This document shows, piece after piece, positions 369-9,994 of a stretch of DNA of 12,886 bases. Position 1 is the stretch's first letter; every line of letters starts with the position of its first letter. The position numbers and the translations under genes were made by a program. The notes beneath the pieces were generated by a model, which did not search any database, was not told the DNA's origin, and saw only the letters and a list, made by a program, of their open reading frames with translations. Origin of the DNA: Desulfobacterales bacterium (GTDB taxonomy: Bacteria; Desulfobacterota; Desulfobacteria; Desulfobacterales; QNYZ01); contig JAOZUU010000025.1 of assembly GCA_029938515.1 (NCBI GenBank), forward strand, positions 1 through 12,886, written 5' to 3'.

Positions 369-1880
369 TTATGGAAACAATCCCCCGATCGCCAGATCCG
401 CCAGATCGAGAATGTAAAACGTTCCGGGGAAAAAGCAGAACACGATGGAAAAAATGGCCGTAATGGTCAGCGGAATTACCATAAACAGATACAGCGGCCG
501 CTCCCTTTCACTGCCGATCCGGACGGAATCATTCGATTCTTTTAGTGCAGCCGGTTTATCAAAAAAGGCCGTTTTTACAATCGGGAAGAAATAGATCACA
601 TCCAGCAGGGAACTGGTCAGGATGACAACCAGAAAAATCAGATAACCGCTTTGTACGGTCCCCAGACACAAATACCATTTGCTGATAAAACCGGCTACCG
701 GCGGCGCACCGGCCATGCCTACCGCGCCAATCGTAAAAGCAACCATGGTGACCGGCATCCGCCGACCGATGCCGGCCATCTGACTGATCTTTTTTTTACC
801 GGTGATAACCAATACCGCCCCGGCGCATAAAAAGAGGGTGATTTTCATAAATCCATGAAACGGGATGTGAATCATGGCCCCTTTAACCCCGTATGAACTC
901 AGAAGGGCCGCTCCAAAAAGAATGTAAGCGAGCTGACTGATTGTTGAGAAAGCGAGACGCCGTTTGAGGTTATCCTCCCCGATGGCGAAAAAAGATCCCA
1001 CGATCATGGTAAAGGAAGCCACCGCGCCAAGCATGAGGCCAAGTCCGAGCGCCTGCATCAGGTCAACGCCAAAGACATAGCAGACAATCCGTACGAATCC
1101 GAATACACCGGCTTTGACTACCGCAACCGCATGCAGCAAAGAGCTGACCGGTGTCGGGGCCACCATGGCCGCCGGCAACCAGGAATGAAACGGCATCCAC
1201 GCCGCCTTCATCGATCCCAGGGCAAACAGCGCGAACAATAACATCAGGGTGCCGGGAGATGCCGTATCCCTGGAAAGAATCCCCCCTTCGGTAAAAGCGG
1301 TGGTTCCGGTAAGGGCATAGGTCATCACGACAGCGGCAAACAAAAACCATCCGGAAGCAAGCAGATAAGATAGATATTTCCGGGTGGCCGCAAACGCTTC
1401 CTCATCTTCGTGGTGGGCGACCAGCCAGTAAGTTGAAAGGGTTAAAGCTTCGTAAAAGATGTAAAATGTTACCAGGTTGGCGGAAAACGCAATGCTTACG
1501 GCGGAAAAGATGGCCAGCGCGAACATAAAATAATATCGGGTCTGGGCATGTTCATCCAGCGCGCGCATGTAGCCGATGGAATAGACCGAAACCAGAATCC
1601 ATAGAAAGGAAGATGTAATCGCAAATATCAGCCCGAAGGCGTCCACCCGATACCCGACCTCCAGGCCGGCGGCAATGGTGATAATGTGGCTGACGATAAC
1701 CTTTCCTTCGAGGATAATCGGAGCCATGGAGATAATTACGGCAAACTGGGCCACAGCGGCGATAAGGGTACAGCCTTCGCGTATGTTGGGCCGGCGGCGA
1801 AAGAAAAAAATAAGCAGGGCGCAACCGAAAGGGAAGGCCAGCGCCAGCAACGGACGAACGGAGTGGATAACCGGATTCAT
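369..1880 (-). CDS. NuoL/MrpA-N-like proton-translocating antiporter subunit (second large subunit)
   Basis: This 503-residue polytopic membrane protein belongs to the proton-antiporter family shared by complex I NuoL/M/N and MrpA/D. It would form one ion-translocating channel in the membrane. Visible key residues are Glu144 in TM5 (YEALTLSTYW), Lys225 in TM7 (MKAAWMPFHSW), the APTPVSSLLHAV motif at 241-252 with His250, Lys256 in TM8, LKRRLAFSTISQLAY at about 305-319, His338/His342, and Lys401 in TM12 (FISKWYL). The APTPVSSLLHA motif is NuoL/MrpA-type rather than MrpD-type, but the long C-terminal part of MrpA is absent; its equivalents are separate genes upstream. The start is set at ATG 1880, which overlaps the preceding stop as ATGA and has a GGGAGGG Shine-Dalgarno 5 bases away. 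A longer reading from 1949 would run deep into the previous gene and is rejected. Confidence 0.9.
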   Translation of the reverse strand: MNPVIHSVRPLLALAFPFGCALLIFFFRRRPNIREGCTLIAAVAQFAVIISMAPIILEGKVIVSHIITIAAGLEVGYRVDAFGLIFAITSSFLWILVSVYSIGYMRALDEHAQTRYYFMFALAIFSAVSIAFSANLVTFYIFYEALTLSTYWLVAHHEDEEAFAATRKYLSYLLASGWFLFAAVVMTYALTGTTAFTEGGILSRDTASPGTLMLLFALFALGSMKAAWMPFHSWLPAAMVAPTPVSSLLHAVAVVKAGVFGFVRIVCYVFGVDLMQALGLGLMLGAVASFTMIVGSFFAIGEDNLKRRLAFSTISQLAYILFGAALLSSYGVKGAMIHIPFHGFMKITLFLCAGAVLVITGKKKISQMAGIGRRMPVTMVAFTIGAVGMAGAPPVAGFISKWYLCLGTVQSGYLIFLVVILTSSLLDVIYFFPIVKTAFFDKPAALKESNDSVRIGSERERPLYLFMVIPLTITAIFSIVFCFFPGTFYILDLADLAIGGLFP

Positions 1881-3382
1881 GGCGTCCCTCCCAGTCCGAA
1901 ACCGGTGTTGATCGCGCCAAGAAAAGGATGGAGGGTTCCGGAGATCCACACGATACCGAAAACAAACGACAGAACCCCCAGAAATAATCCGGGCACAAGC
2001 ATACTTGCCGGGATTTCATTCACCCCGCCCCCCCCGGGAAGGATGGCCTCTTTCTCGGTGCGGATATACATGATCTCGATGACACGCCAAAAGTAGACGA
2101 TCATCAGAAGCGTGCTGGCAAAAATCACGGCCACGAACACGTACCCGCGAGCTTCCAGCGCCGCCCGGATCAGGTACCATTTGGTAACGAACCCGACCCC
2201 AGGCGGCATTCCGATCATTGCCAGGGCCGCCAGGATCATCGCCAGGCTCGTATAGGGCATTCGTCGGCCGAGACCGGCAAATTGACGAATATCCCATAAA
2301 TTATATCGATAAATGAAGCCGCAGGCGGCCATGAACATGCAGCCTTTGATCACCGCGTGGTTGAGAATGTGCATGACGGCCGGTGTCAATCCCAGCGAGG
2401 ATGATGGGGCCAGGCCGACAGCCAAAATGATATAACCCACGTTGGCGATACTGGAATAGGCCAGCATTCGTTTGAGATTGTATTGATTGATGGCGAAAAT
2501 AGAACCGATGATTATGGCCACGGCGGCTGCCCAGCAGATGATCCCGAACACGGGCAGGATCTCCTTGATAAAGCCTAATGTGAATACGGAAAAAATGATG
2601 CGTATAAGGGCATAGACAAATGTCTTGGCTACGGCAGTGGAGATAATCACGCTCACGGCCGACGGGGCATAAGTGTATGCGTCCGGTTGCCAGCTGTGCA
2701 GCGGAAACAGGGCGATTTTAATGGCAAATCCGATGAAGATAAAGACGAAAGCCGTCTGGACAACCCGTGAACCGTACAGATCCGGCAAAAGCATGCGCAA
2801 ATCTTCCATGTTCAGCGAACCGGTGGCAACGTATAAATAGCCGATTCCTATCAGGTAGAACGAGGCGCCGATGGTGCCGATAATGAGGTAACGCAAGCTG
2901 GCAAATGGGGCTTTATCCCGTCCGCTGGCAACCAGGGCGTAACCGGATAGGGAAGCGACTTCGAGAAGAACGAAAAGGTTGAACATATCACCGGTGATGA
3001 TAATTCCCAGCAGCCCGGTTATCAGCAGCATATAAAGGGTCCAGAACAGGGAAATTTTTTCCGGCAGTTCCTGTTCAACGCTTTTTTTGGCATAAACGGC
3101 TGCCAGCCATCCAAGCAAGGATACCAGGGCCAGCATAAAAGCGGTCAGATGATCGACCCTAAATTCAATTCCCCAGGGAGGTTGCCAGCCGCCGAGCTGG
3201 TATTGGGTCGGTCCGTAACGGAGGACCGAATCAAGGGCAACGGCAGCCGACACTACGCATACAGACAGCCCCCCCATAGCTAAAGGGAAAGCCAGTTGTT
3301 TATTCCGCCAACCGAAAAAAAAGATGAAAATGGAGGCGATAAGTGGAGCGACAACAATGATGGCAGGGAATTGGTGCAGCAT
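1877..3382 (-). CDS. mnhD: Mrp-type cation/proton antiporter subunit D
   Basis: This 501-residue protein has about 14 membrane segments and belongs to the NuoM/N-MrpD family of proton-translocating antiporter subunits. Conserved charged residues of the channel are visible: Glu141 in TM5 (VLLEVASLSGYALV), Lys222 in TM7 (IKIALFPLHSW), His229, Lys253 in TM8 following YAPSAVSVI, His338, Lys346 and Lys401 in TM12 (FVTKWYL). LKRMLAYSSIANVGY at 303-317 is the typical family motif. The length fits MrpD. ATG 3382 lies directly against the stop of the upstream cyclic-nucleotide-fold gene (no gap), and its own stop overlaps the next start as ATGA, so the three genes are translationally coupled. By order and motifs it is the counterpart of MbhH/MbsH; this comparison rests on family knowledge, not on a search. 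Confidence 0.92.
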   Translation of the reverse strand: MLHQFPAIIVVAPLIASIFIFFFGWRNKQLAFPLAMGGLSVCVVSAAVALDSVLRYGPTQYQLGGWQPPWGIEFRVDHLTAFMLALVSLLGWLAAVYAKKSVEQELPEKISLFWTLYMLLITGLLGIIITGDMFNLFVLLEVASLSGYALVASGRDKAPFASLRYLIIGTIGASFYLIGIGYLYVATGSLNMEDLRMLLPDLYGSRVVQTAFVFIFIGFAIKIALFPLHSWQPDAYTYAPSAVSVIISTAVAKTFVYALIRIIFSVFTLGFIKEILPVFGIICWAAAVAIIIGSIFAINQYNLKRMLAYSSIANVGYIILAVGLAPSSSLGLTPAVMHILNHAVIKGCMFMAACGFIYRYNLWDIRQFAGLGRRMPYTSLAMILAALAMIGMPPGVGFVTKWYLIRAALEARGYVFVAVIFASTLLMIVYFWRVIEIMYIRTEKEAILPGGGGVNEIPASMLVPGLFLGVLSFVFGIVWISGTLHPFLGAINTGFGLGGTP

Positions 3383-3898
3383 CTACTTTTTCCGGTTATT
3401 ATCGTCTTTTTCCTTCTGTAGCAGACTTCCGATCTCAGGATGGTGCCGAATCACCTTAAGAAACTGCTCCGTCCGGATATCGTAACGTTTTTTAACAACA
3501 TGCAGCAGCCGGTGACTCATGATGTATCCCAAATGATAATCTTTATCGAAAAGTGCTTTCAATTTCTCTGCCCGAAACGAGAGCAGTTGAGCCGGTTCCG
3601 CACAGATCGCGTCGGAGGTATAGAATTCGGCCTCTTCATCCAGCAAGGCCGACCAGCCAAAACCAAACCCCGCTTTTATCGAACTTATGGAAACGGTTAC
3701 CCCGGTGGCAATTCGCTGTTCCAACAATACCTTCCCCTGGAGAACAGAAAAATAACGGTCGGCTTTGTCTCCCTGGTGAAAGACGAATTCTTTTTCATCG
3801 TACTGAAGCAACTCGGTAATCGGTATCAGTTTATCGAGCATGTCATCGCTTAAATATCTCATCATGACGATTTGTTTCAGCGCTTCCCTGGATATCAT
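3383..3898 (-). CDS. Cyclic-nucleotide-binding-fold protein with atypical ligand pocket
   Basis: This 171-residue soluble protein has residues about 15-110 that read as a Crp-type cyclic-nucleotide-binding beta-barrel (Phe-x-His-Gln-Gly-Asp at 40-44 and VLQGKVLL at 52-59). A helical tail at 111-171 ends in a highly charged stretch. No helix-turn-helix DNA-binding domain is visible, so it is not a complete Crp/Fnr regulator. The phosphate-binding cassette is abnormal: the usual Phe-Gly-Glu-x-Ala-Leu reads FGWSALL at 80-86, with Trp replacing the ribose-binding Glu, and no Arg occurs from 80 to 100 where the phosphate-binding Arg should lie. Canonical cAMP or cGMP binding is therefore doubtful. 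ATG 3898 has an AGGAG site 6 bases upstream. The gene sits inside the antiporter operon and abuts mnhD, so it may sense something for, or regulate, the antiporter. That role is inference. Confidence 0.85.
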   Translation of the reverse strand: MISREALKQIVMMRYLSDDMLDKLIPITELLQYDEKEFVFHQGDKADRYFSVLQGKVLLEQRIATGVTVSISSIKAGFGFGWSALLDEEAEFYTSDAICAEPAQLLSFRAEKLKALFDKDYHLGYIMSHRLLHVVKKRYDIRTEQFLKVIRHHPEIGSLLQKEKDDNNRKK

Positions 3899-3990: not shown

Positions 3991-4082
3991 GTTGATACTT
4001 GATTCTGGATGCTTGATCCTGGATAAAAATAAGGTATAATTCTTTGTTGATACCCAGTACCTATAAACCAGTATCCAGTATC
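3991..4082. repeat. Palindromic heptamer-repeat element, copy A
   Basis: The 263-bp gap between mnhC and the cyclic-nucleotide-fold gene holds this element. The left arm is a degenerate 7-bp tandem array (units such as tggttga, tacttga, ttctgga, tgcttga, tcctgga). After an AT-rich centre, the right arm (4068-4082) carries the inverse unit CCAGTAT twice, so the arms can pair. Copy B lies at 9909-9994. TTCTGGAT (4003-4010) and GCTTGATnCTGGATAAAAA (4011-4029) are shared with copy B, which has exactly one extra heptamer between them. I see no gene in the rest of the gap. Confidence 0.75.
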
Positions 4083-4161: not shown

Positions 4162-4557
4162 TCAGGCTTCTCGGATCCTTTCCAGAATCTCGTTTTCTTC
4201 CAACGTGTGATACTGCTGATGGACCTTGATCACCAGTGTCAGGGCCACACCCAGCGTGGCGACAGCCACGACGATGGCTGTCAGCATCAGCACATGGGGC
4301 AACGGATTGATATAGTGAGTGGCCGTTACCGCCGTATGGGCGGCATCATGGCCATGCTCGATAATGGGGATCGTGGCGTTTTTTTTAGCGCCGATGGATA
4401 TAAAAAAAAGGATAACGGCCGTCTGAAGGATGTTCATGCCGATAATCTTCTTGACCAGATTTTTCTTGGCAATGATGCCGTAAAGGCCGATCATCATCAG
4501 CACAATATATACCCAGTAGTTCACCCTTGAAATCAGAACGTCCAGAAGCACTTCCAT
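4162..4557 (-). CDS. mnhC: Mrp-type cation/proton antiporter subunit C (NuoK-like)
   Basis: This 131-residue protein has three predicted membrane helices and is homologous to complex I NuoK and MrpC/MbhG. It helps form the lateral membrane channel next to the MrpD-type subunits. The family hallmark NPLPHVLMLTAIVVAVA lies at 84-100, followed by TLGVALTL; the first helix ends in GLYGIIAKKNLVKKIIG. The loop between helices 2 and 3 (about 57-84) is unusually His-rich (EHGHDAAHTAVTATHY), a possible metal- or proton-sensitive patch. The C-terminal tail of about 25 residues is charged. ATG 4557 follows the mnhB stop by only 2 bases. Downstream there is a 263-base gap with a palindromic repeat before the next operon gene, the largest break in this otherwise tight cluster. 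Confidence 0.92.
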   Translation of the reverse strand: MEVLLDVLISRVNYWVYIVLMMIGLYGIIAKKNLVKKIIGMNILQTAVILFFISIGAKKNATIPIIEHGHDAAHTAVTATHYINPLPHVLMLTAIVVAVATLGVALTLVIKVHQQYHTLEENEILERIREA

Positions 4558-4559
4558 GG

Positions 4560-5390
4560 CTACAACCCCTCGTCGTGTTTTCCGGCCGAGGCCAGGTTGT
4601 AGTACAACGTTACCATGACGGCCATGACCGCGATACCGACGCCGATTTCAACAATCAGGATTCCGTGGGACCTGGCCGTCACGGGGTCGACGCCAAGTAC
4701 GCCGGCCAATGCGCTGTAGTCCAAGTAGTTCAACCCCAGGAGCATGCACAACACTCCCGTACCGGCATAGATGAAAACCCCGAGGGTACACAACAATACG
4801 GTTAAACGCTCTCCCATCCGCCGGGTGGCCGATCGCAGATTGAATGCAACGGCATAGAGAATCATGGCGGCCCCCAGGATGACGCCGCCCTGAAAGCCAC
4901 CACCCGGGCTGTGATGACCGTGGGCGATGACATACAACGCGAAAATTTGAATAAATGGCACGATCAGTCGACAGGTGGTTTTAACGATCAGATCATGCGG
5001 CACCCAAACCGAATCGATTCGTTCGAATGCCGCCGATTTCTCTGGAAATTTGCCGCTCTTTTCGATCCGGAGGGTGATGCCGGTGGGAATATGACGGTAA
5101 AGCCGGGTTTCCGTCTCTTCTTTTCGAAAAATCCGCAAAAGAAAGATGCAGGCGATACCGGCCGTGAAGATGACGATGGTCTCGAACATGGTATCGTATC
5201 CCCGGTAATCGGCCAAAACGGCGGTGACAAGATTCGGAACGGAAGTATCTTCCACGGACTTCTCGATATAGTACGGAGATACATGGCTGCTGGCCGGTGA
5301 GGCAGGGTCCCCCCATGGTGGAAATTCAAGCGAGCCGTAGATCAGCACGCTTCCCAGGATGACAACCAGAATCAGACCGCCTATCTTCAA
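4560..5390 (-). CDS. mnhB: MbhE-MrpB fusion subunit of the Mrp-type antiporter
   Basis: This 276-residue membrane protein is made of two units. Residues 1-90 resemble MbhE or the extreme C-terminal part of MrpA: one helix at about 4-20, the motif DYRGYDTMFE at 61-70 and a second helix at 70-88. After a charged linker (about 89-130), residues 131-276 are MrpB, with four helices and the hallmark HGHHSPGGGFQGG at 157-169. It forms part of the membrane core linking the small subunits to the antiporter channels. Translation starts at TTG 5390, which overlaps the upstream stop as TTGA. An AGGAGG site (5399-5404) lies 8 bases upstream, so the rare start is well supported, and no in-frame ATG competes nearby. 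MbhE and MbhF(MrpB) are separate proteins in Pyrococcus Mbh, so the fusion is notable. Confidence 0.9.
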   Translation of the reverse strand: MKIGGLILVVILGSVLIYGSLEFPPWGDPASPASSHVSPYYIEKSVEDTSVPNLVTAVLADYRGYDTMFETIVIFTAGIACIFLLRIFRKEETETRLYRHIPTGITLRIEKSGKFPEKSAAFERIDSVWVPHDLIVKTTCRLIVPFIQIFALYVIAHGHHSPGGGFQGGVILGAAMILYAVAFNLRSATRRMGERLTVLLCTLGVFIYAGTGVLCMLLGLNYLDYSALAGVLGVDPVTARSHGILIVEIGVGIAVMAVMVTLYYNLASAGKHDEGL

Positions 5391-5632
5391 TCTTCGGTCC
5401 TCCTGGATGTACGAAATACGGCAGCGACGAACAGCACCGTACTGATGCCGGCCCCTACCGACGCTTCAGTGAAGGCGACATCGACCGCACCCATGATGGC
5501 CCACAACAGACACATCATAAAACTATAGGCCCCGAACAAGATGGCCGCGCTCAGTAAGTCTTTGACGGCCAGGGCACCGACAGCCAGGATGATCACGATG
5601 ATCAGGATAAGAAGTTCAATCTGCCAGATCAT
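5387..5632 (-). CDS. MbhD-like subunit (MrpA C-terminal domain, DUF4040-type)
   Basis: This 81-residue protein has three hydrophobic segments (about 5-22, 27-48 and 58-73). It corresponds to the MbhD subunit, equivalent to a domain near the C-terminus of MrpA. Its hallmark is the conserved acidic pair in DVAFTEASVGAG at 51-62 (Asp51, Glu56), with Lys24-Asp25 earlier in the chain. These residues are thought to lie on the ion path between the small subunits and the antiporter subunits. The start is ATG 5632, which overlaps the mnhG stop as ATGA and has an AAGGGG site just upstream. An in-frame ATG at 5665 would add 11 residues inside mnhG and is less likely. It is coupled at its 3' end to the TTG start of mnhB. 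Confidence 0.85.
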   Translation of the reverse strand: MIWQIELLILIIVIILAVGALAVKDLLSAAILFGAYSFMMCLLWAIMGAVDVAFTEASVGAGISTVLFVAAVFRTSRRTED

Positions 5633-5955
5633 GCCTGCCCCTTTTCTGCAGGCGGTTTTGTCCACGGTTTCAATCCGGCCCTGACACCGGCATCGACAAT
5701 GGCATGGGTAGCCGTCGGACTCGTTATAAAGACAAACACAAGAATCAAACCGATTTTCAATGCCGTTAAATACAATCCTTGCGAAAAAGCAATATATAAT
5801 GCCAGGGTACCGATGGTAGTCACCAATCCGAAGGTATCGAGTTTACCGGCCGGATGCAGTCGGGAATAAAAATCCGGGAATCGGAGAATACCTAAAGTAC
5901 CGCCGGTAAAAAAGATCAGGCCGCATATCAAAAGAAGTGTAAAGATAATATTCAT
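5629..5955 (-). CDS. mnhG: Mrp-type cation/proton antiporter subunit G
   Basis: This 108-residue protein has three membrane helices, as expected for MrpG/MbhC. The hallmark GTLGILRFPDFYSRLHPAGK lies at about 19-38 and is followed by the DTFGL motif; the third helix is ALKIGLILVFVFITSPTATHAI. MrpG is a small subunit of the antiporter membrane core. ATG 5955 sits 82 bases after the mnhF stop, with AAAGGGG a little far upstream (about 12 bases), so initiation may be modest. Its stop overlaps the start of the MbhD-like gene as ATGA. The length and motifs are normal for the family. Confidence 0.92.
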   Translation of the reverse strand: MNIIFTLLLICGLIFFTGGTLGILRFPDFYSRLHPAGKLDTFGLVTTIGTLALYIAFSQGLYLTALKIGLILVFVFITSPTATHAIVDAGVRAGLKPWTKPPAEKGQA

Positions 5956-6037: not shown

Positions 6038-6328
6038 TCAGCGATGAGGGCTTTCGTCATATAAGCCTTTTCGTTTCTGAAAATACCTTGAAGCCGCCAG
6101 CACGGCGATAAAATTCAACATGGCATAGGCCAGGGCAATATCAACGAACATGTCCACCCGATGATACATCAGTCCGATGAGAATCAGGAGCGTCGTGGTT
6201 TTGCTGCCGATGGCATTGACGCCGATCAAACGGTCCAGAATCGTCGGGCCGCGCACCGCCCGATACAAAGACAGAAACATCAGCAAACACAGGTACAGAC
6301 CGGTATATAGAAAAACGTGTTCCATCAT
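6038..6328 (-). CDS. mnhF: Mrp-type cation/proton antiporter subunit F
   Basis: This 96-residue protein has three membrane helices and is typical of MrpF/MbhB. The conserved segment is RGPTILDRLIGVNAIGSKT at about 26-44, with the DRL acidic/basic pair, followed by DMFVDIALAYAMLNF. MrpF is thought to help carry the ion in the antiporter core. The start at 6328 (Met-Met, second ATG at 6325) overlaps the mnhE stop as ATGA, so translation is coupled. AAGGA lies directly before the first ATG, which slightly favours the second Met. The C-terminal KRKGLYDESPHR is polar and short. The next gene, mnhG, follows after 82 bases. Confidence 0.92.
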   Translation of the reverse strand: MMEHVFLYTGLYLCLLMFLSLYRAVRGPTILDRLIGVNAIGSKTTTLLILIGLMYHRVDMFVDIALAYAMLNFIAVLAASRYFQKRKGLYDESPHR

Positions 6329-6903
6329 TCCTTGAATACGCGGGCGATTCGGTGCTCCATTTCACCGGGCAGTGGCTCACCCGAGGGCACATCGATGCAA
6401 TGAACCGTGAATCGGCCCATTACGGAAACATTTACGGTTATGGTTCCGGGCGTTAACGTGATGGAATTGGCAAAAGTGGTCCGGGCAATATCACTTTCCA
6501 GATGACTGTTAAATTCGATGATGTGCGGATCGATTAACTCCATCATTCTGGGATGAAAGGACAGACGGAGCACGTGCAGGTTGGCAAGTAAAATCTGATA
6601 GAGCAACCAGGGAACATACCATGCAAATCTAATCCAACAGGATAAAAAATCAGTTTTCAATCCGGAGGGGAACAGCAGATCACTGGAAAAAATAGTTACC
6701 AGCAGGCAGGAAACCACGCCTAGAGATAGATGAAATAGATCGAATTTACCGGAAAAGATCAGCCAAAAGCCAATCATAATGATGAAGGTGATAATAAAAG
6801 GTAATGTAGATGATCGCTTTTTGGTGGGGTGTTGCGGTTGATGCGTCTGCAGCACAGGCTGGTTGGGCTCCCGGGTCGGGGTTATTTTTTTATCAGCTCC
6901 CAA
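6325..6903 (-). CDS. mnhE: Mrp-type cation/proton antiporter subunit E, first gene of the operon
   Basis: With the start chosen here this is a 192-residue MrpE/MbhA homologue. It has a polar Pro/Gln-rich tail of about 30 residues, two closely spaced helices (PFIITFIIMIGFWLIFSG and LSLGVVSCLLVTIF), a third helix (WYVPWLLYQILLANL), then a soluble domain with the family hallmark TTFANSITLTPGT. Two starts are possible. ATG 6990 (221 aa) has no Shine-Dalgarno and coincides with the predicted transcript start of the sigma-54-like promoter at 6999-7015. TTG 6903 has GAGGAGGG 7 bases upstream. I therefore prefer TTG 6903, as for the other TTG start in this operon (5390). Even so, the N-terminal tail is longer than usual for MrpE. 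Its stop overlaps mnhF as ATGA. Confidence 0.88.
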   Translation of the reverse strand: MGADKKITPTREPNQPVLQTHQPQHPTKKRSSTLPFIITFIIMIGFWLIFSGKFDLFHLSLGVVSCLLVTIFSSDLLFPSGLKTDFLSCWIRFAWYVPWLLYQILLANLHVLRLSFHPRMMELIDPHIIEFNSHLESDIARTTFANSITLTPGTITVNVSVMGRFTVHCIDVPSGEPLPGEMEHRIARVFKE

Positions 6904-6910
6904 TCCTTGA

Positions 6911-6918
6911 CCCTCCTC
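6911..6918 (-). promoter_or_regulatory. Strong Shine-Dalgarno deciding the mnhE start
   Basis: GAGGAGGG on the minus strand lies 7 bases before TTG 6903, an optimal distance. The alternative ATG at 6990 has no comparable site. This supports the shorter MnhE. Confidence 0.6.
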
Positions 6919-6998
6919 TTCCAAAAGTATCTTATCTATAACAATTGCTTGGGGGGCACGTTCTGGGTTCGTGTCGGTGGTATTAGCCATGACAATAG

Positions 6999-7015
6999 AG
7001 CAATATTTATGCCAA
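6999..7015 (-). promoter_or_regulatory. Sigma-54 (-24/-12) promoter of the antiporter operon
   Basis: The minus strand reads TTGGCATAAATATTGCT. Against the RpoN consensus YTGGCACGRNNNTTGCW it matches at all but two informative positions. The invariant GG and GC are exactly 10 bases apart. With C of GC at -12 (7000), transcription would begin near 6988. That start falls within the ATG at 6990-6988, so that ATG could not be used on this transcript. A palindrome at 7139-7156 could bind the activator that sigma-54 promoters require. Seen: the match and spacing. Inferred: use in vivo. Confidence 0.7.
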
Positions 7016-7052: not shown

Positions 7053-7087
7053 TGAACCCTGAACGATGAACGATGAACGATGAACCA
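7053..7087. repeat. Tandem heptamer array (TGAACGA units)
   Basis: Five consecutive 7-bp units are present: TGAACCC, three perfect TGAACGA, and TGAACCA. The array lies between the sigma-54-like promoter and the upstream palindrome, in the 5' region of the antiporter operon. It is a simple short tandem repeat, so unit number may vary between strains and would change promoter-to-activator-site spacing. Confidence 0.85.
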
Positions 7088-7138: not shown

Positions 7139-7156
7139 CGCAATATATTTATTGCG
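7139..7156. promoter_or_regulatory. Palindrome, possible activator-binding site for the antiporter operon
   Basis: This is a perfect inverted repeat with 7-bp arms and a 4-bp spacer (CGCAATA-TATT-TATTGCG). It is centred about 160 bases upstream of the transcript start predicted from the sigma-54-like box, in the usual range for enhancer-binding-protein sites. No such regulator gene is in the window. It could instead be a hairpin in the 3' tail of the upstream gene, but it lacks a T-run. Confidence 0.4.
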
Positions 7157-7212
7157 TTGGATGTTTTTTATTGCATGGTTCCTGGTGTTGCCCGAAGTAA
7201 CATATCAACCCC

Positions 7213-7881
7213 TTAACCCCTGACAATTTGATAGCTGGCCGATTTATATCCCTTCACCTTCCGGATGTGAAAAGCGAGAATCCGGCTTTCGTATTGGCCG
7301 GTATAATTTTTAAGCTTTTTTTTGCCTTTCCGAAATCGCGCGCCCTGAAGGTTCACTATCAGGCTTTGTACGTCGTTGACCCTTCCTTCGCAGAGCAGAC
7401 GGGGACCGTCGCCGATTAATACCTCCCATTCCCCGGCGACCAAAATACCCAAATCTTCAAGCATCGGATAAAATTCTTCCATAACATATCGAGAATACTC
7501 ATCGTAGTCTTCTTTTTTTTCGGTGACGACGTTCCACATCTGGTTAAATTTAATCGTGTTCTCACGAATATCGGTGGAATAGGCGTCCTTCTTTCCGGTT
7601 GATACCAGCACCTTGGTTTTGTAATTGGTGATATGGTTTTGCAGATCCGACAACAGCTTTCGATAATCATCACTCCGTAGTGCCCCTTCGAGAAGATCAA
7701 GGTCGTTGCTGACCGTTTCGAGGATGAAATCGTTGTATGCCCCCACCATCACGGACCACGCCGCCACCGTATGCATGTTCAATCGATTCACCCCGGGGAT
7801 AAACTGTTTAATGATAAATTTTTCGTAATCATCTCTTTTCCGGGGATTGACCGTCCAGTAATGATTAAATTTAACCGTCAT
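7213..7881 (-). CDS. Unknown protein made of two tandem dimeric alpha/beta-barrel-like domains
   Basis: This 222-residue soluble protein has no signal peptide and no recognised function. Residues 4-95 and 111-205 are an internal duplication. Both begin Lys-Phe-Asn-x-x-Trp (KFNHYWTV and KFNQMWNV), continue with Lys-x-x-Asp-Tyr (RDDYEKF and KEDYDEY), an Ala-x-x-Trp-x-Val-Met/Leu-(Val/Ile)-Gly strand (AAWSVMVG and GEWEVLIG), and end in a helix before VL/IL. The pattern of about 95 residues per unit suits a ferredoxin-like dimeric alpha/beta-barrel (NIPSNAP/antibiotic-monooxygenase-like fold), so one chain could form an intramolecular pair. The first repeat has an acidic helix; the second is very basic near 184-192 (RKGKKKLK). 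ATG 7881 has an excellent AGGAGGG site. It appears monocistronic, ending in a Pro-poor basic tail 222 bases before mnhE. Confidence 0.8.
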   Translation of the reverse strand: MTVKFNHYWTVNPRKRDDYEKFIIKQFIPGVNRLNMHTVAAWSVMVGAYNDFILETVSNDLDLLEGALRSDDYRKLLSDLQNHITNYKTKVLVSTGKKDAYSTDIRENTIKFNQMWNVVTEKKEDYDEYSRYVMEEFYPMLEDLGILVAGEWEVLIGDGPRLLCEGRVNDVQSLIVNLQGARFRKGKKKLKNYTGQYESRILAFHIRKVKGYKSASYQIVRG

Positions 7882-9908: not shown

Positions 9909-9994
9909 TTCTGGATACCTGATGCTTGATACTGGATAAAAAAATGAAAAAATTCCTTATTCCTTCCAGGATCCAGTATCCAGTATCCAGTATC
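9909..9994. repeat. Palindromic heptamer-repeat element, copy B
   Basis: This lies in the 265-bp gap between lspA and holA. The left arm is TTCTGGAT, ACCTGAT, GCTTGAT, ACTGGATAAA; the right arm is three perfect CCAGTAT units (9973-9993). The arms are mutually inverse across an AT-rich centre, so a long imperfect hairpin can form. Compared with copy A (3991-4082), the left arm has one additional 7-bp unit and the right arm one additional CCAGTAT. Confidence 0.8.

Follow-up and report, generated by a model that had tools for sequence, protein, structure and literature searches.

A predicted sigma-54 promoter with paired putative activator sites ahead of an Mrp-type antiporter operon in a Desulfobacterales bacterium

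We analysed a 12,886-nucleotide stretch of DNA from a Desulfobacterales bacterium (the window), and our data suggest, with a probability of roughly three in four, that its mnh (Mrp-type antiporter) operon is activated through sigma-54 by an NtrC-family response regulator encoded on contig C35 of the same genome, jointly with a redox locus on contig C288. Direct computation gave a sigma-54 box, a pair of upstream sites, their spacing and the match to a regulator-linked motif, and showed that the genome has both rpoN and the regulator gene. Regulator binding, phosphorylation, the transcription start, the adjacency of C35 and C288 and the physiological reason are steps that we infer. The mnh operon would be transcribed from the promoter at 7014–6999, and the C35 response regulator, phosphorylated by the neighbouring PAS-domain histidine kinase, would bind tandem TGCAATA-N4-TATTGCA-like palindromes at 7139–7175 and reach the polymerase through a DNA loop of about 124 bp. 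It would also drive the C288 locus, with its TauE/SafE-like (TSUP) permease and, read divergently, a cytoplasmic molybdopterin oxidoreductase accompanied by Fe-S and NuoE/NuoF-like proteins. If the C35 regulator drives both, the antiporter would be made when the C288 redox system is made, presumably balancing the Na+ and H+ gradients that this system changes.

The promoter core, TGGCATAAATATTGCT, lies on the minus strand at 7014–6999 and fits the consensus TGGCAYRNNNNTTGCW with zero mismatches, its GG and GC exactly 10 bases apart; it likewise satisfies the pattern TGGCAYR-N4-TTGCW exactly. An RpoN box with GG-N10-GC spacing had been proposed at 6999–7015 in the initial annotation, and the exact fit bears this out; the sequence of those 17 bases, TTGGCATAAATATTGCT (minus strand 7015–6999), holds the 16-base core, and base 7015 is one more than the core. 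Within the window alone the box is only mildly unusual and proves little, as one site at ≤1 mismatch (in fact with none) was found against 0.34 expected from shuffles. Across the whole genome (3.23 Mb, 72% complete), the exact consensus occurs at 10 sites, compared to one for the reversed pattern, and therefore most exact sites are not due to chance. These strict counts are independent of the sigma-54 score matrix used for the relatives, whose weights we assigned after the published consensus. The same genome encodes RpoN on contig C152 (PF04552, 208 bits) as a 387-aa fragment whose N-terminal part lies beyond the contig end, and the sigma-54 activator domain gives 21 matches in it, of which 18 are strong.

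The operon downstream of the box runs leftward, with all genes on the minus strand, in the order mnhE (6325–6903, PF01899, with a probable TTG start), mnhF/mrpF-like (6038–6328, PF04066), mnhG-like (5629–5955, PF03334, and TIGR01300 above its cut-off), an MbhD-like subunit corresponding to the DUF4040 part of MnhA (5387–5665, PF13244), an MbhE–MnhB fusion (4560–5390, PF20501 and PF04039), NuoK-like mnhC (4162–4557, PF00420), a cyclic-nucleotide-binding-domain protein (3383–3898, PF00027) and two MnhD-type subunits (1877–3382 and 369–1949, both PF00361, with antiporter subunit D as the best NCBIfam match, below cut-offs). Subunits B, C, D, E, F and G of the Mrp (MnhABCDEFG) antiporter are thus recognised in the window by Pfam above cut-off. 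Unlike that system, the window has the C-terminal parts of MnhA as separate pieces (MbhD on its own, MbhE joined to MnhB) and two D-type subunits; its gene order begins with E and includes the cyclic-nucleotide-binding protein as an insertion. We call the operon Mrp-type because no open reading frame in the window carries the full MnhA domain set as a single large MnhA, the MbhD and MbhE domains being found on separate small genes. An open reading frame with a start similar to that of the cyclic-nucleotide-binding protein sits at the equivalent place in L099, L208 and L209, and none is listed at that place in the f42 operons L211 and L212. Upstream of mnhE lies a 222-aa open reading frame (7213–7881, minus strand), for which no Pfam or NCBIfam match was found; DNA resembling its 3′ end occurs upstream of mnhE in L032, L033, L003, L004 and L005.

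The transcription start predicted from the box, 12 bases past the C of the −12 GC, is 6988 on the minus strand. This position falls within the ATG at 6990–6988, which therefore cannot be the start codon of that transcript, and in L033, a 67%-identical relative, the alignment places AAC opposite this ATG while the box is intact; we rejected ATG 6990 as the mnhE start on both counts. The MNHE domain (PF01899) occupies residues 69–214 of the ATG version, and this late beginning also favours a start further downstream. A Shine-Dalgarno-like sequence, GAGGAGGG, is seen at 6918–6911 on the minus strand, with an in-frame TTG (6903–6901) 7 bases after it, and mnhE probably starts at this TTG rather than at the ATG, which would leave an 85-base leader. 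The Shine-Dalgarno sequence that had been noted downstream of the box is present, and it fits the TTG.

Upstream of the box, as the initial annotation had claimed, there is a palindrome, GCAATAAATATATTGC (GCAA-N8-TTGC), at 7155–7140. It belongs to the main (proximal) putative activator site, CGCAATAAATATATTGCG at 7139–7156, which scores 22.7 bits with a motif trained at regulator loci; a second (distal), weaker putative site, TGCAATAAAAAACATCCA at 7158–7175, scores 11.9 bits exactly 19 bp further upstream. A second site at 19 bp is also found at the mnh promoters of L033, L006, L150 and L142 and at C288, and in all six promoters examined, the window included, this position is the best remaining one of 236. 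The distance from the end of the main site to the box is 122–127 bp in the window, L033, L006 and L150, 88 bp in L142 and 115 bp at C288. In L006 a different, divergent and unrelated gene lies upstream of the site, and therefore the arrangement follows mnhE and not its neighbour. The sequence GCAATAAATATATTGC, in either orientation, also occurs at the regulator loci of genomes G092, G253 and G112. Between the activator site and the promoter, the window carries a heptamer tandem repeat, TGAACGA ×3.7 (7060–7085); another heptamer, TCCAGTA ×4.3, is found at 9965–9994, with the rotated form CCAGTAT ×2.1 at 4068–4082.

A composite search of the 389 genomes of the order for the dyad GCAA-N8-TTGC 108–138 bp before a box gave 51 sites in 47 genomes, compared to 5 with the reversed pattern. 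Several of these matches lie between divergent sigma-54 boxes at loci with TauE/SafE-like permease and molybdopterin-oxidoreductase genes, and at some loci a membrane histidine kinase and an NtrC-type response regulator are close by. A match to the regulator is present in 28 of the 47 genomes with a composite site and in 132 of the 342 others (P 0.005). The composite pattern was rejected as proof of a C35-type regulator, since 19 of the 47 genomes have no regulator match and many matches may be due to chance or to other proteins; for that reason the motif was learned at loci selected through the regulator. Twenty regions upstream of regulator orthologs were drawn from the 160 genomes with an ortholog, and 14 of them, together with L135 and L136, made up a training set of 16 divergent sigma-54 regions, picked by regulator rather than by motif and with the window excluded. 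The six left out were L191, L193, L196 and L201, which have no divergent box pair, and L197 and L206, from genomes already found by the composite pattern. TGCA-N10-TGCA is present in 11 of the 16 training regions and GCAA-N8-TTGC in 10, compared to about 0.13 in shuffles; 300 rounds of shuffling never took any dyad above 7.

The trained matrix, TGCAATAAATTTATTGCA, which gives the window site (7156–7139) its 22.7 bits, scores 25.7 before mnhE in L150, 20.0 in L006, 18.0 in L142, 14.9 in L033 and 9.8 in L032. A reversed control over 816 kb of partly overlapping loci gave no site at ≥14.9 and three at ≥13. Searched through the window's own genome, YGCAATAWWWWTATTGCR has its only site with zero mismatches at mnh (7139–7156) and its only site with one mismatch at C288; at ≤3 mismatches there are 50 sites, compared to 27 for the reversed pattern. 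Eight other genomes were searched at ≤2 mismatches, and three have a perfect site: G102 before mnhE, and G092 and G253 at the regulator locus. Sites with two mismatches precede mnh in G008 (among 10 sites, 2 reversed) and in the L033 genome (8 sites, 3 reversed), and such two-mismatch sites in other genomes are partly chance. The remaining GCAATN6ATTGC sites of the own genome, on C133, C256 and C356 (reversed control 2), were set aside, as they lie inside listed open frames with no box within 1 kb.

To follow the box in relatives, we scored the window and 51 distinct relatives over the 450 bp that precede the MNHE domain, with a threshold of 12.5 (in L150 the search also went further upstream). 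The 51 are the loci retrieved (29 + 3 + 20, with L032 and L138 counted once); 159 of the 389 genomes, its own included, match at 1e-30. Nine relatives reach the threshold, compared to about 0.4 expected from a background in which 0.87% of 3,688 stretches do so; the binomial P of 6e-10 treats the relatives as independent, though five of them share one genus. The nine are L014, L153, L154, L156 and L157 (one f42 genus), L033, L150, L006 and L007; L142, at 11.8, falls below the threshold. The aligned copy of the box in L033 is TGGCATAATTATTGCG. In L032, the closest MnhE relative (83% identity; same upstream sequence as L138), the box-bearing segment is missing, a weak palindrome site is kept, and the genome has the regulator. 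The GCAA-N8-TTGC palindrome of 7155–7140 is kept in L033, L006 and L032, and a few relatives from other families keep box, palindrome pair and spacing together before mnhE. Conservation in relatives, which had been proposed as a check on the promoter, is partial: the box recurs in 9 of 51, but 42 of 51, L032 included, are below threshold within 450 bp, so that control by the putative sigma-54/palindrome route would be lineage-specific and labile.

Regulator matches at E ≤1e-160 are found in 160 of the 389 genomes, its own included. The own-genome copy, on C35, is 66% identical to the query regulator, combines a receiver domain (PF00072) with a sigma-54 activation domain (PF00158), and neighbours a histidine kinase with HisKA, HATPase_c and PAS domains. 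Pfam gave no match to the DNA-binding HTH_8 domain in the C35-type regulator; a helix-like C-terminal stretch, [LM]ERQALQQI[MI][RK]RY, is by eye nearly constant in 8 orthologs. The regulator has GAFTHA where GAFTGA is usual, a variant listed among those keeping activation in work on Desulfovibrio vulgaris Hildenborough (PMC4641369). As the site matches the motif of a specific NtrC-type regulator, the link from antiporter to an activator ATPase, which the initial annotation had drawn from the sigma-54 box, gains support from comparison and a candidate, the putative activator on C35.

On C288 there are permease and oxidoreductase genes, the permease scoring 29.3 in Pfam (partial reading), below the TauE cut-off of 32.6. 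In this locus (L096) Fe-S, NuoE-, NuoF- and other redox-type open reading frames come after a molybdopterin oxidoreductase, opposite the TauE-like permease, and together they resemble a cytoplasmic, NAD-linked and perhaps electron-bifurcating complex. In the window's genome the regulator and this locus are on different contigs; the genes at the ends of C288 and C35 follow the order seen in the single locus of G092, G188 and G389, and the two contigs are therefore probably neighbours in the genome. Besides the own genome, those of L006, L150, L142 and L138 have a regulator ortholog, while in the L033 genome (completeness not given), which has both site and box, no ortholog was found (best match 46%). 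By count, regulator and palindrome co-occur weakly: GCAA-N8-TTGC precedes mnhE in 4 of 19 genomes with the regulator and in 0 of 31 without it (P 0.017), a count that excluded L032–L034, whose genomes are outside the regulator search, and adding L033 and L034 gives 4 of 19 and 1 of 33 (P 0.054). The palindrome is missing in the other 15 of the 19 genomes with regulator and mnhE. Scoring was on the exact palindrome, so that L138 counted as having it and L142, with one mismatch, did not. At L208 in G102 (2088–3713, plus strand), a molybdopterin oxidoreductase gene immediately precedes the mnh operon and its sigma-54 promoter.

These observations could also be explained by a real sigma-54 promoter that answers to another bEBP with a similar recognition site. 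The 18 strong activator-domain matches in a genome only 72% complete, the presence of the site in L033 without a detected ortholog, and a different bEBP system near the mnh operon in another family all speak for such a protein. We nevertheless consider it rather unlikely, as the motif was learned at C35-type regulator loci alone and yet has its sole perfect match in the genome at mnh, and the near-constant C-terminal stretch of the orthologs also argues against a different protein.

That the box itself is fortuitous, with mnhE served by an ordinary housekeeping promoter or by transcripts that run on from the 222-aa gene upstream, would agree with its absence in 42 of 51 relatives and with one weak sigma-70-like site predicted at 7226–7199. 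This site is the only one found and matches the chance number (1, compared to 0.9 in shuffles), and a sigma-70 promoter for mnhE was rejected for that reason. Moreover, box and paired site recur at near-fixed spacing before mnhE in L033, L006 and L150, with a different upstream gene in L006, and the composite pattern is tenfold commoner than its reversed form (51 and 5 sites in 389 genomes), which makes a chance box very improbable. The palindrome, an inverted repeat downstream of the 222-aa open reading frame, might instead be read as the terminator of that gene or as a repressor operator. The terminator reading was dropped because nothing terminator-like was found at 7139–7175, and in the training loci the same motif lies flanked by divergent sigma-54 boxes. 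Paired sites upstream of the box are the usual arrangement for activators, and with two sites 19 bp apart in that position here, we regard a terminator or operator as scarcely credible. Activation by the C35 regulator through the sigma-54 promoter remains our preferred reading.

A second system appears in the f42 genus. Two GGCA-N6-TGCC dyads, spaced exactly 40 bp apart and with ≤1 mismatch each, are present at all five of its box-bearing mnh promoters and at none of the four that lack a box. A sigma-54 activator gene lies near mnh in four f42 loci (L014, L153/L210, L156/L211 and L154/L212), identified by Pfam for L014 and L153 and by motif for the others, in a survey that covered these four of the five box-bearing loci. 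Judged from protein starts, receiver-like and kinase-like genes are near mnh in L210–L212 too. This looks like an independent way of placing the mnh operon under sigma-54. We tentatively suggest, at somewhat less than even odds, that in this order the Mrp-type antiporter has come under sigma-54 at least twice, by two activator systems, one shared with the TauE-like permease and molybdopterin oxidoreductase and the other a bEBP–receiver–kinase cluster beside the operon.

NtrC-family response regulators work through upstream activator sites and a sigma-54 promoter. The present case shares the receiver and sigma-54 activation domains, the paired palindromic upstream sites and the −24/−12 box of that family; it differs in having its own motif, TGCAATA-N4-TATTGCA, with sites 19 bp apart, an Mrp-type target and no HTH_8 match in Pfam. 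The sigma-54 regulome of D. vulgaris Hildenborough comprises 37 NtrC-type regulators (Kazakov et al. 2015, PMC4641369) and includes response regulators that, as proposed here, switch on operons for TSUP-family permeases from sigma-54 promoters. The main texts of PMC4641369 and PMC12316311 contain none of the words antiporter, mrp and mnh, PMC3333781 contains neither antiporter nor mrp, and the main text of the Mrp antiporter review PMC5703873 is without the words sigma, transcription and promoter. In the open literature searched, outside which most subscription papers lie, we found no Mrp operon reported to be under sigma-54 control; where Mrp antiporter and sigma-54 are mentioned together, the passages do not link the two. 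In marine sulfate reducers, Mrp is proposed to respond to Rnf by moving Na+ or H+ (PMC10553843). The kind of control described here is already known; its target, an Mrp-type antiporter operon, is unusual.

Sigma-54 promoters are silent without an activator ATPase, and therefore, if the proposed activation is correct, a bioenergetic ion antiporter would be a strictly signal-gated gene set, with a candidate sensor, regulator and binding site named. It would tie the antiporter to a poorly understood permease/molybdenum-enzyme module whose regulator is widespread in the order, and would give that regulator a concrete regulon. If two systems have indeed arisen, the antiporter would be a component that specific energy-conserving modules call up when needed, rather than a general salt or pH device.
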